Of a stretch of 64,000 nt of DNA, positions 32,799-37,537 are shown piece by piece (within the stretch, counting starts at the first letter, position 1; each line of letters starts with the position of its first letter). Source of the stretch: Opitutia bacterium (GTDB lineage: Bacteria; Verrucomicrobiota; Verrucomicrobiia; Opitutales; Opitutaceae); the NCBI GenBank assembly GCA_016217595.1, contig JACRHS010000008.1, positions 62,001-126,000 on the forward strand, given 5' to 3'. Made by a program: the position numbers and the translations under genes. The notes under the pieces were generated by a model that searched no databases, was not told the origin of the DNA, and was given only the letters and a program-made list of their open reading frames with translations.

Positions 32799-34037
32799 TC
32801 AGTCTGAGCGCAGCGCCTCGACAACATTCATGCGCGAGGCGCGCACGGCTGGGTAGAGTCCGGAAACCACACCGACCAACGCGCTAAAAAATACGCCGAT
32901 CACGAGTGCCGCGATCGAAAGCTCCGGACGGTTTTGCGGCACCACGATCTTTTGGAGCAGTGCCACCAGGCCGATGCTGGCCACCATGCCGAGTATGCCG
33001 CCCGCAACCGAAATCGCGAACGACTCGGCCAGGATCTGGATGAGAATGTTGGCGCGTTTTGCCCCGAGAGCCCTGCGTACGCCGATCTCGCGGACGCGCT
33101 CGTTGATCGAGGCCAGCATCACGTTCATGATGCCGATGCCGCCGACCAACAGGCCGATCGCCGCCACGCCGCCGAGCGAGAAAACATAGCTGCGGCGCGT
33201 CTCTTCGAAGCGGTTCAGCAGGTCTTCGCGTGTCTCCAGGCGAAAATCGTTCACGCCGCGGTGGGTGTGCAGGAGGACGTTGGTGAGTTGTTGGAGCGCG
33301 TGATGAATGTCCGCCACGTCGGCGAGCTGCACGTTCAGCACGTCGATATTTTCGTCGATGCGGTAGAGCGTCTGGGCGGTGGCCAGCGGGATGAAGACGG
33401 CGAGGTTTTTAAGGTTGTACCGGTTGCCCGCTCCGCCGGCGCCGCCGAAATCGTATTCGTGCAGGATGCCGACCACAGTAAAGGGCTGTCCGTTGATGGT
33501 CAGAATGCGGCCGAGCGGATCGAGGCCGCGCGCGAACAATTGCTCGGCGATGCGCGCGCCGATCACGACAACCTGGTTTTGACGCTCGTTGTCGACTTCG
33601 CCGATGAGCCGTCCTTGGGCCACTTTGAAGCGGTCCATGACGAAAGTCTCTGGCATCACGCCGCGGATATGTTGCCAGGTGGCGCGGCCTTGATGGTACA
33701 GCCGGGCATTGTGGATCATGACCTCCGCCGTCACCCGGCGGGCGAGGGGGACGGCCGCGCGGATGGCTTCGACATCGCGCAATGTGCGGCCGGGGGAAAG
33801 TGCCGCGTAATCGCGCTGGCGCTCTGGCGGCGCCTGGGAGGTGACACTGATGCGCTCAATGCCGCCCGTCTCGTAGATCATCGCTTCCCAGCCGCTCAGG
33901 AGGCCTTTCACCACGCCGAGCATGCCGACGAGGGCGGCGGCGCCGAGCACGATGCCGGTCATCGTCAGGAACGAGCGCAGCTTGTGCGCGAGCACCTCAC
34001 TCCAGCCGCTGAGAATACCGAGCAGAAAGAGCCGCAT
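32799..34037 (-). CDS. MacB-type ABC transporter permease
   Basis: This 412-residue protein is a FtsX/MacB-type permease. It has TM1 near residue 25-45, a periplasmic MacB domain (about 50-270) and three C-terminal TMs (about 285-400). The family signature GGIGIMNVMLASINERVREIGVRRALGA appears near 296-323. Unlike true MacB it lacks the N-terminal ATPase, and no ATPase gene is adjacent. The HlyD-type adaptor gene is upstream, with eight bases between. Together they would form an efflux or lipoprotein-export assembly that needs an ATPase encoded elsewhere. Confidence 0.85.
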   Translation of the reverse strand: MRLFLLGILSGWSEVLAHKLRSFLTMTGIVLGAAALVGMLGVVKGLLSGWEAMIYETGGIERISVTSQAPPERQRDYAALSPGRTLRDVEAIRAAVPLARRVTAEVMIHNARLYHQGRATWQHIRGVMPETFVMDRFKVAQGRLIGEVDNERQNQVVVIGARIAEQLFARGLDPLGRILTINGQPFTVVGILHEYDFGGAGGAGNRYNLKNLAVFIPLATAQTLYRIDENIDVLNVQLADVADIHHALQQLTNVLLHTHRGVNDFRLETREDLLNRFEETRRSYVFSLGGVAAIGLLVGGIGIMNVMLASINERVREIGVRRALGAKRANILIQILAESFAISVAGGILGMVASIGLVALLQKIVVPQNRPELSIAALVIGVFFSALVGVVSGLYPAVRASRMNVVEALRSD

Positions 34038-34045
34038 GACGCGCC

Positions 34046-35233
34046 TTAGCTGCCCTTGGCTTTGCGACGGCTCAGATCACTTACCGCGCCACTGCTGCCG
34101 GGAATTTCGCCGAGAAAATCCAGCGGGCGGGTGAGGGCGACCTCCTCGTTTTCGGCCAGCCCCGAGAGAATTTGCACCCGGCGCGTGTCGGCGATGCCGG
34201 TCTCGACCGGGCGCACGGTGAACCCCTCGGGTGTTTTCACGAAGACATAGCGGCCGGCGTCGGCGGTGGCGAAGACGGCGGAGAGCAGTACGGCGGGGGT
34301 CTTGTCGACGCGCGAGAGGGTGAACGTGATGGTCGACGACATGCCCGGGCGCAGGCGCGGCTCGGGAGTTTGCAGCACGACGTCGACGGGGAAAATGCGC
34401 GTGCGGTCCTGAGCGCTCTCAAGGGCGCTGGTGGCGATGCGTTTCACCACGCCGTCGAGGATGACGTTGCCCAGTGGATCGATCCTGACTTTGGCGGGGT
34501 CGTCACCGCGGAGGCGTGCGACGTCGATTTCGTTGATATTGGTGCGCACCATGAGGGCGGAGAGGTCGGCGACTTCGCCGAGCATCGTGCCGCCGTTTTG
34601 CGCGGCGACGCCGGTGATGACTTGTCCCTCGGTGAGATCGCGCAGCAGCAGTGTGCCGTCGTGCGGTGCGCGGATGATCGTCTTGGTGAGCCGGTCGCGG
34701 AGATTGGCGGCGCGGGACTCGGCGATGGAGGCGTCGTTGTCAGCCAGCGCCTGGGCGGTGCGGGCGTCCTCCATGTCCTTTGGCGTGGTGAGCGAGCGCT
34801 TGTCGAGCTCGGCCAGCCGGGAATAGTCGCGGCGGGCTTTTTGGGCTTTGAGTCGGGCTGCTTCGATGGAGCGCTCCGCCTCCTGCACCTGCGTGAGAAG
34901 ATCTTGTTGATCGAGGCGGAGGATTTCTTCGCCCTTGGTGACGACTTTGCCGTCGACCCCGGTGATTTTGATGATGCGGCCGTTGATTTCGCTGCGCAAC
35001 TCGGTGGAGAACACCGCACGGATGCGGCCCACCGCGATGATTTCCTCGGCGATGGAGGCGATGCGAACCTTGGTGGTGGGCACGACCTCGTCGCGTTTGT
35101 TACCGAACAGACTTGGGCTGATGATCCGCCAGAGCTGAAATCCGCCCCAGACCAGACCGGCGAGGAGGACGAGCGAAAGGAGTATGCGGAGGGTGTTGAC
35201 GAGCCAGCGAGGCAACTTGGAGCGGGAAGACAT
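34046..35233 (-). CDS. HlyD/MacA-type membrane fusion adaptor
   Basis: This 395-residue periplasmic adaptor has one N-terminal TM (about residues 12-34), a lipoyl/barrel-sandwich half (RSEINGRIIKITGVDG) and a coiled-coil hairpin (about 105-175). The second lipoyl half is IRAPHDGTLLLRDLTEGQVI, and beta-barrel and membrane-proximal domains follow. It connects the permease to an outer-membrane channel that is not present here. It is the first gene of a two-gene operon with the ATPase-less permease. Confidence 0.85.
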   Translation of the reverse strand: MSSRSKLPRWLVNTLRILLSLVLLAGLVWGGFQLWRIISPSLFGNKRDEVVPTTKVRIASIAEEIIAVGRIRAVFSTELRSEINGRIIKITGVDGKVVTKGEEILRLDQQDLLTQVQEAERSIEAARLKAQKARRDYSRLAELDKRSLTTPKDMEDARTAQALADNDASIAESRAANLRDRLTKTIIRAPHDGTLLLRDLTEGQVITGVAAQNGGTMLGEVADLSALMVRTNINEIDVARLRGDDPAKVRIDPLGNVILDGVVKRIATSALESAQDRTRIFPVDVVLQTPEPRLRPGMSSTITFTLSRVDKTPAVLLSAVFATADAGRYVFVKTPEGFTVRPVETGIADTRRVQILSGLAENEEVALTRPLDFLGEIPGSSGAVSDLSRRKAKGS

Positions 35234-35586
35234 TACGGAAGGAAGAAGGGTGGTCGGTGGCGCCGTTGGCGGCGTCGAGTGATGCGGAGAAAGCGAAACG
35301 TAGATTGTGGGAGATCGGATTAAGGTAAAGCACTCATCGGCAAGCGGCCGCAGAGTGCGGAAAGGAACCGTCCCAGCGCCGCCGCGCCCGCCGGGCGAAA
35401 CGGCAGGCGCCGGCCCAGCGTTGGCTTGACGCGCGAGGTGGGCCGGCGGTTTCGCATTCCGATGCAAAAACATGGTCTGATGGCGTGGCCTCAGGTTGCC
35501 CGCCGGTCGCGGGCGTAAAGTAGCTGTGCGATTTGACTCGGCGGTAAATCGGCATCGCTTTCTAGCAGAACCCCAAAGGACACCCC
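35234..35586. other. Gene-free divergent region
   Basis: These 353 bases separate the adaptor gene from the tandem dehydrogenase genes and should hold promoters for both. A TTGACG-like box is near 35429 but no matching -10 is convincing. The middle part (about 35360-35450) is very GC-rich and could form stems, but no clear known RNA is seen. Confidence 0.35.
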
Positions 35587-36519
35587 ATGAAACGTGTGAG
35601 CATTGTCGGAAGCGGTAATGTCGGCACCAACATCGCCTTTTTCGTCGCGGAAAACCGCACCGCCGACGTGGTGTTGATCGATATCAAAGACGGCGTCGCC
35701 GCCGGAAAGTCGCTCGATCTGATGGAAGCCGGCCCGGTGCGCGGCTATGCCACCTCGATCCGTGGCAGCAATCGCGCCGACGACCTCGCGGGCAGTGACA
35801 TCGTGATTATCGCCGCCGGGCGCGTGCGCAAACCCGGCGAACGGCGGGAGGATCTTTTCCGCGACAACGCTCCTCTGGTCCGGAGCATCGCGAACGACAT
35901 CCGCCGGCTGGCGCCGCAGGCCCTCGTGATCAATCTCGTTGAACCGATCGATCTGTTGACGCTTCTGATTCAGGAGACGCTGGGCGCGGAACGCTTCCGC
36001 GTCATGGGCGTGGGCGGTCTGCTCAGTGCGACGCGCATTCGTTATCTGGTCAGTCAGGCGTTGGGCGTGTCGCCGCGCGAAGTCACGGGGCTCGTCATCG
36101 GCCCGCATCATCCGAGCATGGTTTTTCTGCGTGATACGATACGCGTGTCAGGCATTCCGGTGGCGACGTTGCTCGACGAAACCTGGCTGGGCCAGTTGAT
36201 CGAGGAGGCGCGGAACGCGGGTGACACCATTTTGCAACTGGCGCAGCGCTCCACGTCCTATTACGCGCCGAGCGCCGCCGCGGCCACGTTGGTCGACGCC
36301 ATCGTGTGCAACACCCAGGCGCTGCTGCCGGTGTCGGTGCGATGCGAAGGTGAGTACGGCATTCACGGGCTTGCCATCGGCGTGCCGGTGCTGGTCGGCG
36401 AAAAAGGAGTGACCCGAATCCTGCAACTGCCCCTCCCCGAATCGGAGCGGACGGCGTTTCAACAAGCAGCGGCCGAGCTGCGGACTGCACACGACAACCT
36501 CGCCCTCGCGGCGGTCTAA
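35587..36519 (+). CDS. Malate/lactate dehydrogenase-fold protein with degenerate active site
   Basis: This 310-residue protein has the Rossmann core of the LDH/MDH family (VGSGNVGTNIA, Asp32 for NAD) and keeps R81 and R87, which bind the substrate in MDH. Three catalytic positions are changed relative to the next gene. The NP[LV]D motif reads EPID (N to E119). The LDSxR motif reads LSATR (catalytic relay Asp to S147). GGHGD reads GPHHP (His174 kept, but with altered flanks). It is unlikely to be an active dehydrogenase; a regulatory partner or changed substrate is possible. It is 11 bases upstream of the intact gene. Confidence 0.8.
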   Translation: MKRVSIVGSGNVGTNIAFFVAENRTADVVLIDIKDGVAAGKSLDLMEAGPVRGYATSIRGSNRADDLAGSDIVIIAAGRVRKPGERREDLFRDNAPLVRSIANDIRRLAPQALVINLVEPIDLLTLLIQETLGAERFRVMGVGGLLSATRIRYLVSQALGVSPREVTGLVIGPHHPSMVFLRDTIRVSGIPVATLLDETWLGQLIEEARNAGDTILQLAQRSTSYYAPSAAAATLVDAIVCNTQALLPVSVRCEGEYGIHGLAIGVPVLVGEKGVTRILQLPLPESERTAFQQAAAELRTAHDNLALAAV

Positions 36520-36530
36520 GGGAGGCCACC

Positions 36531-37475
36531 ATGTCTAGAAACAAAGTCAGCATCATCGGAGCGGGCAACGTGGGCGCGACGGCGACGTATTACATCGCGG
36601 AGAAAGTCATCGCCGATCTCGTGATGGTCGATGTCGAGGGCGGCATGACGCGGGCCAAGGCGCTGGATTTTCTCCACGCTGGACCGCAACGCGGTTACGA
36701 CGTGCCCATCGTCGGCACCAACGATTTTGCCCAGATCGCCGGCAGCAACGTCGTGGTGATCACGGCGGGCATTCCCCGCAAGCCGGGCATGGACCGGATG
36801 GACCTGCTCAAGGTCAACACCGGCATCGTCAAGCAGGCTGCGCGCGCCATCGCCGAACATGCGCCCAACGCCGTTGTGATCGTTGTCTCCAATCCGCTCG
36901 ACATCATGTGCCACGTGGCGCTGCGCTCGACCGGGTTTGCGCTGCGGCGCGTGATCGGCATGGCGGGCATCCTCGATTCGACGCGCTTCCGCTATTTCGT
37001 GGCGGAACAAATGCAGTGCGCGTTGTCCTCGGTGCACGCGATGGTCCTCGGCGGACACGGCGACCAGATGGTGCCGCTGCCGCGTCTGACGACGGTCGGC
37101 GGTGTGCCGATCACCCAATTGCTCGACGAACCGACCATCGCGCGGTTGGTGGACCGCACCCGCAAAGGCGGCGCGGAGATTGTGGCGTTGTTGAAAACCG
37201 GTTCGGCCTACTATGCCCCGGCGGCGTCGGTGGCGGAGATGGTCGAGGCGGTGATCACCGATCGCAAACACCTCGCGCCGTGCGCGGCCTATTTGCGCGG
37301 CGAATACGGCATCAACGACCTCTACATCGGCGTGCCGGTGCTGCTTGGGAAAAACGGCGTGGAACGCATCATCGAGTTGACGCTGACGGAGGAGGAGCGC
37401 CGGCAGTTGGCGGCCAGTGCCGACGCGGTGCGCAAGGGCGTCGAGGAGCTGAACACATTCTACAAGCCGACGTAG
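36531..37475 (+). CDS. mdh: Malate dehydrogenase
   Basis: This 314-residue protein is an intact LDH-like malate dehydrogenase that interconverts malate and oxaloacetate with NAD. It has IIGAGNVGATATYYIAEK, D34 for NAD, R83 and R89 on the substrate loop, N121 in SNPLD, the relay pair D149 (ILDSTR) and H176 (GGHGDQMVPL), and R152. A GGGAGG-type ribosome-binding site precedes it. It would feed the TCA cycle. The upstream paralogue with a broken active site is its close structural relative. Confidence 0.9.
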   Translation: MSRNKVSIIGAGNVGATATYYIAEKVIADLVMVDVEGGMTRAKALDFLHAGPQRGYDVPIVGTNDFAQIAGSNVVVITAGIPRKPGMDRMDLLKVNTGIVKQAARAIAEHAPNAVVIVVSNPLDIMCHVALRSTGFALRRVIGMAGILDSTRFRYFVAEQMQCALSSVHAMVLGGHGDQMVPLPRLTTVGGVPITQLLDEPTIARLVDRTRKGGAEIVALLKTGSAYYAPAASVAEMVEAVITDRKHLAPCAAYLRGEYGINDLYIGVPVLLGKNGVERIIELTLTEEERRQLAASADAVRKGVEELNTFYKPT

Positions 37476-37537
37476 TCGCGAAGCGCGCTTGCCGCACCGG
37501 TCGGTTCGGCGCGATTGTGCCGTTACTCTTTAGCAGT

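Follow-up and report, generated by a model that had tools for sequence, protein, structure and literature searches.

An altered malate dehydrogenase paralogue is found in constant tandem with an intact malate dehydrogenase in Opitutaceae and Krumholzibacteriota

The window, a 64,000-nucleotide stretch of DNA from an Opitutia bacterium (GenBank assembly GCA_016217595.1, contig JACRHS010000008.1, positions 62,001 to 126,000), lies in contig C32 of a 3.6 Mb assembly that is 68% complete. It contains two adjacent genes that both belong to the LDH/MDH family according to Pfam and NCBIfam and encode proteins with 38% identity to each other (Table 1). The upstream gene encodes a malate dehydrogenase (MDH) paralogue with an altered catalytic centre, here called psi-MDH, and the downstream gene encodes its partner MDH; a sequence-only reading of the window had placed an intact MDH 11 bases downstream of the altered copy and the two open reading frames bear this out. 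The ribosome-binding site of the partner MDH (AAGGGAGG) starts inside the psi-MDH stop codon. A search for a sigma-70 consensus in the presumed promoter region upstream of psi-MDH found none, and the number of terminator-like sites near the pair is no higher than shuffled sequences give. The MacB-like/HlyD-like pair is found beside psi-MDH in the window and is absent next to the pair at the other loci read; downstream of the partner MDH follows a GNAT-like gene in the same direction (the HlyD-like, MacB-like, GNAT-like and gatA/gatB names used here were assigned from translations by eye). The genome has a third, ordinary MDH of the PRK05442/TIGR01759 type outside the window, on contig C2 (G000:C2:56253-56954), and the tandem pair is therefore an additional, LDH-like MDH system.

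Table 1. Features of the tandem MDH locus (positions in the window)
Feature	Position	Strand	Remarks
MacB-like/HlyD-like pair	32799-35473	-	divergent from psi-MDH; HlyD-like ORF starts at 35473
Intergenic region upstream of psi-MDH, presumed promoter region	35474-35586		between the divergent HlyD-like gene (minus strand) and psi-MDH
psi-MDH (MDH paralogue, altered catalytic centre)	35587-36519	+	310 aa, ATG start; ORF, domain matches, alignment
Gap between psi-MDH and partner MDH	36520-36530	+	11 bases; holds the ribosome-binding site of the partner
Partner MDH, catalytic residues intact	36531-37475	+	314 aa, ATG start; TIGR01763 above cut-off, alignment
Weak terminator-like hairpin downstream of partner MDH	37507-37522	+	

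psi-MDH is a clear member of the superfamily, with matches to PF00056 (95.4 bits, cut-off 27) and PF02866 (76.9 bits, cut-off 22.6), and also of the NCBIfam subfamily PRK06223 (NF004863; 305.7 bits, cut-off 283); automated annotation would therefore label it malate dehydrogenase. The equivalog model TIGR01763 (MalateDH_bact, cut-off 351.85 bits) separates the two proteins: the partner scores 423.3 bits, psi-MDH only 269.9 bits, and three further psi-MDHs reach 285-313 bits, all below the cut-off. With a profile made for psi-MDH, members score about 500 bits or more and other MDHs about 341 or less. No solved structure was found within the subfamily, the best PDB match having 341 bits against this profile. 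A monomer model of psi-MDH has an MDH-like fold (pLDDT 86.5, TM 0.91-0.93 to MDH structures) that corresponds to the full-length MDH fold with no added domain and no extension; its most poorly defined part is the stretch 41-52. The model of the partner MDH (pLDDT 57.6) is too poor for an interface comparison. The fold is shared with the LDH-like tetrameric MDHs of Chloroflexus aurantiacus (1GUY/4CL3) and Thermaerobacter marianensis (7AOB) at a TM of about 0.91-0.93, and psi-MDH also resembles these enzymes in length, NAD motif, the three substrate arginines and the active-site His. It differs from them in the change of Asn140 to Glu in all psi-MDHs, the change of Asp168 to Ser or Thr in most, the replacement of GGHGD and the constant tandem partner.

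The active site was compared in an alignment of 12 psi-MDHs, 11 full-length partner MDHs and 20 other MDHs, using a published list of MDH first-shell residues (PMC4109310). The partner MDH of genome G129 was left out; its frame (L036, G129:C17) is broken by unknown assembly bases and the psi-MDH there is intact. In the window psi-MDH, Asn140 is replaced by Glu (E119), the relay residue Asp168 by Ser (S147) and GGHGD by GPHHP, and His195 is kept (H174); the partner MDH has the intact set R83, R89, N121, D149, R152 and H176. Thus, alignment to the intact copy and to the 20 other MDHs agrees with the substitutions that had been read from the sequence alone. That reading had also described the fold, the NAD loop and 'both' substrate arginines as kept, which is correct except for the count, as all three arginines are retained: Arg102 (R81), Arg109 (R87) and Arg171 (R150). 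All three are invariant in the 12 psi-MDHs, and so are E119, H174 and the NAD motif GxGxxG with Asp32 (D32). The S/E/PHHP signature proposed for orthologues holds in part. Its Glu is family-wide; the relay position is Ser or Thr in nine psi-MDHs and Asp in three, and the loop that replaces GGHGD, which is lost in all 12, reads G(P/S)H(H/T/R)x, with PHHP not general. Position 237 is Asp in nine of 12 (D213 in the window), position 245 is mostly Thr or Asn, and positions 112, 245, 246 and 250 are variable.

Both Asn140 and Asp168 are present in every one of the 31 MDHs compared (the 11 partners and the 20 others), and the changes in psi-MDH are therefore not ordinary family variation. Eight residues are the same in the partner and invariant across the psi-MDHs: Arg102, Arg109, Leu167, Arg171, His195, Met199, Gly236 and Ile239. 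Of the 16 first-shell residues, nine do not vary among psi-MDHs, in comparison to 78 of 310 residues in the whole protein (p=0.006); conservation is therefore stricter at ligand-binding residues than elsewhere, while the catalytic set is altered. Measured against a functional malate dehydrogenase (EC 1.1.1.37), psi-MDH has the dicarboxylate arginines and the NAD motif in all 12 cases and lacks the complete catalytic set Asn140/Asp168/His195. Since GxGxxG and Asp32 are invariant, psi-MDH is expected to bind NAD; with no Asn140 and, in the window, no relay Asp168, normal malate oxidation is unlikely, judged from the known roles of these two residues. The open literature yielded no usable source on the consequences of mutating Asp168 or Asn140. 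The four more divergent psi-MDHs all have Glu140; three of them keep Asp168 and the fourth has Ser. Most simply, the Asn140 to Glu exchange and the altered loop would have preceded the loss of Asp168, which may have happened twice; the trait that defines psi-MDH would then be Glu140 rather than the relay residue.

The 12 psi-MDH orthologues come from seven of 252 Opitutaceae genomes (that of the window and six that belong to a single other genus) and from five of 80 genomes binned as Krumholzibacteriota, four of the latter being more divergent (43-47% identity). Close orthologues are on four contigs labelled Opitutae, Opitutia or Opitutaceae and on one labelled Krumholzibacteriia. All 12 genes are open, with neither an internal stop nor a frameshift. 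In the Krumholzibacteriota search, the family profile gave members 500-516 bits and other MDHs at most 336. No further psi-MDH was found in 387 genomes sampled across the window's phylum and 384 sampled across its class; the profile surveys covered the family, class and phylum of the window and Krumholzibacteriota, and the search of the whole collection used short exact peptides. When the partner-clade MDH was searched independently, it was found, with a clear score gap, in the same seven Opitutaceae and the same five Krumholzibacteriota: at the score cut-offs used, 12 of the 332 genomes have both psi-MDH and its partner, and none has one of the two alone. In all 12 genomes psi-MDH immediately precedes its partner, and the partners all belong to a single MDH clade; the tandem order for which an orthologue survey had been suggested is thus invariant, and constant genetic pairing with an active paralogue is what is expected of a heteromeric enzyme with a regulatory paralogue. 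The gap between the two genes is 10-14 bases in Opitutaceae and in the Krumholzibacteriia genome G276 and -4, 12, 21 and 35 bases in the other four Krumholzibacteriota, with one pair overlapping by 4 bases (ATGA type).

The genes flanking the pair vary by lineage (gatA/gatB, MacB/HlyD, PCMT, a PALP enzyme, an FG-GAP protein) and no neighbour shared across lineages, from which a pathway could have been inferred, was found at the pair loci. As the flanks differ between lineages, what is conserved is the pair, and its scattered occurrence in two phyla suggests that this two-gene unit was spread by transfer. The contig of G276 is short (9.3 kb) and misbinning of this sequence is possible; however, its psi-MDH is 66% identical to the one of the window, and four other genomes of the phylum carry the pair. 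A phage origin of psi-MDH was rejected because no relative was present among viral contigs. A plasmid origin was rejected too: the plasmid matches have about 39% identity or less among the matches listed, and the six that were read keep Asn140 and Asp168. At loci L010 and L002, from two sister genomes, the partner MDH has a duplicated SI, a two-residue insertion at around residue 60 (316 instead of 314 aa).

Pairwise dN/dS values (NG86) within Opitutaceae are 0.08-0.19 for psi-MDH and 0.05-0.17 for the partner MDH; in comparisons with G276, where synonymous sites are near saturation, they are 0.24-0.31 and 0.15-0.20, respectively. psi-MDH is thus under purifying selection by the dN/dS test that had been proposed with the sequence-only reading, and the conserved loss of catalytic residues under such selection is the combination expected of a pseudoenzyme. 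A decaying duplicate carried along beside the intact MDH, which unconserved sites and relaxed selection would have indicated, is the least probable explanation and was rejected: psi-MDH does evolve at about double the rate of its partner, but the low dN/dS within Opitutaceae, the 12 orthologues free of stops and frameshifts, the 78 invariant columns that include ligand-binding ones, the invariance of E119 and of the tandem order and the retention in two phyla all stand against decay. The trees of psi-MDH and partner are congruent (distance correlation 0.985), and both separate the four divergent genomes from the rest and recover G276, then the window sequence, branching next, as well as two inner pairs. 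In a common tree, psi-MDH and partner form one group with low support (44/76), which points weakly to the two being direct sisters. Only two sites, R52 and Y54, are common to psi-MDH and partner and not found in other MDHs; they are located where the helical stretch 41-52 ends, and we take this stretch to be the subunit-contact helix alphaC of LDH/MDH.

Malate dehydrogenase, one of the best-studied enzymes, is usually presented as a homo-oligomer. The strict pairing of psi-MDH with its partner, the short distance between the two genes and the agreement of their trees suggest that the two proteins cooperate, most simply in a mixed dimer or tetramer. We infer that psi-MDH has lost malate oxidation, binds ligands, assembles with its MDH and regulates it, and give about an even chance to a role as a ligand-binding, weakly active or inactive subunit of this kind. 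psi-MDH would be produced together with the partner, which by its residues is a complete enzyme, and the two would assemble into a mixed MDH-type dimer or tetramer. Within it psi-MDH, oxidising malate very weakly or not at all, would bind NAD(H) through GxGxxG/D32 and a dicarboxylate through R81, R87 and R150 and respond to these ligands as a regulatory or stabilising subunit. Tetrameric LDH-like MDHs are dimers of dimers, with the dimer as minimal catalytic unit (PMC4250060). The poor definition of the stretch 41-52 in the psi-MDH model would suit a segment that is ordered by the partner, which is weak evidence; R52 and Y54 may just reflect shared ancestry of the two proteins, since these group together with low support. 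Against the subunit reading, Asp168 is kept in three psi-MDHs and His195 in all 12, which formally leaves room for activity, and the same tandem order and tree congruence would be expected if two separate enzymes were metabolically coupled or if a short operon were merely inherited as a whole.

The main alternative is an enzyme of another kind: psi-MDH could be an active homo-oligomer whose reaction differs from that of MDH and whose substrate is a dicarboxylic 2-oxo or 2-hydroxy acid, with a carboxylate shifted from Asp168 to Glu140 (and Asp237) resetting the protonation of His195, and with the MDH supplying or removing its substrate. This is possible, albeit rather less probable than not. 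The invariant E119 and H174, the Asp at position 237 in nine of 12, the constancy of all three arginines and of the NAD motif and the strong purifying selection speak for it, but the varied neighbourhoods give no hint of a pathway, the strict pairing with a single MDH clade exceeds, in our judgement, what is usual for pathway neighbours, and the loss of GGHGD together with the variable positions 112, 245, 246 and 250 suggests a relaxed catalytic geometry. The further idea that invariant Glu140 and His195, with the carboxylate placed on a different side of the histidine, make up a catalytic centre new to the LDH/MDH fold, for a reaction not yet described on an acid resembling malate or oxaloacetate and possibly inside a mixed oligomer with MDH, we regard as unlikely. 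Even less probable is that psi-MDH still oxidises malate, weakly or only in a mixed oligomer, with the changes tuning rate or pH response: His195 and the arginines would allow it and three orthologues have Asp168, but position 140, Asn in 31 of 31 MDHs, is Glu in every psi-MDH and GGHGD is always lost. A moonlighting protein, for example an NAD- or dicarboxylate-sensing regulator or a chaperone of MDH that forms no stable shared oligomer, would fit the kept binding residues, the altered catalytic ones and the strict co-occurrence; with a full-length MDH fold that has neither an added domain nor an extension, it is very improbable. The strict co-occurrence with one MDH clade and the congruent trees lead us to favour the regulatory subunit.

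If this reading is true, the unit conserved in two phyla is a heteromeric or regulated MDH; under the alternative it is a new reaction in this fold. psi-MDHs are easy to miss because they are annotated as plain malate dehydrogenase, and the carriers of the pair are little-studied soil and water bacteria. A literature search for a heteromeric MDH or an MDH pseudoenzyme, limited to open literature, found no paper. In the trypanosomatid deoxyhypusine synthase DHSc/DHSp, a diverged and catalytically dead paralogue is retained next to its active sister and activates it in a heterotetramer (PMC3663545), which is the mode of action put forward here for psi-MDH. It is an unrelated enzyme, however, and complex formation and activation are shown there, whereas for psi-MDH/MDH they are suggested by the pairing. 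Within the LDH/MDH superfamily, the altered active site of the HicDH clade was read as altered substrate specificity (PMC4109310); HicDHs keep Arg109, Asp168, Arg171 and His195 and differ at position 102 and in the loop, whereas psi-MDH keeps position 102 and alters catalytic residues.

Two other closely spaced MDH pairs were observed. A plasmid of Sulfurovum mangrovi (NZ_CP087125.1) likewise has two adjacent, diverged LDH-like MDHs, which are sisters in the tree (100/97). They differ from the psi-MDH pair in that the first copy has RGRD at the NAD-ribose Asp loop and the second GDHGQ for GGHGD, and that both keep Asn140 and Asp168; this tandem may be a second, independent example of such a pairing. 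The Sulfurovum pair (L081:8001-9898; NZ_CP087125.1 96081-97978) is part of a TCA-cycle run of icd, mdh, mdh, fumarase, sucCD and 2-oxoglutarate synthase. In a relative from the window's class, two MDH matches lie about 2.4 kb apart (G283:C1:325117-326007 and 328391-329263; L053, L059), and their motifs are identical at all checked sites (CGRTRQPGMTREEL, GSHGEQ), which points to a duplication of recent date or to a repeat in the assembly.
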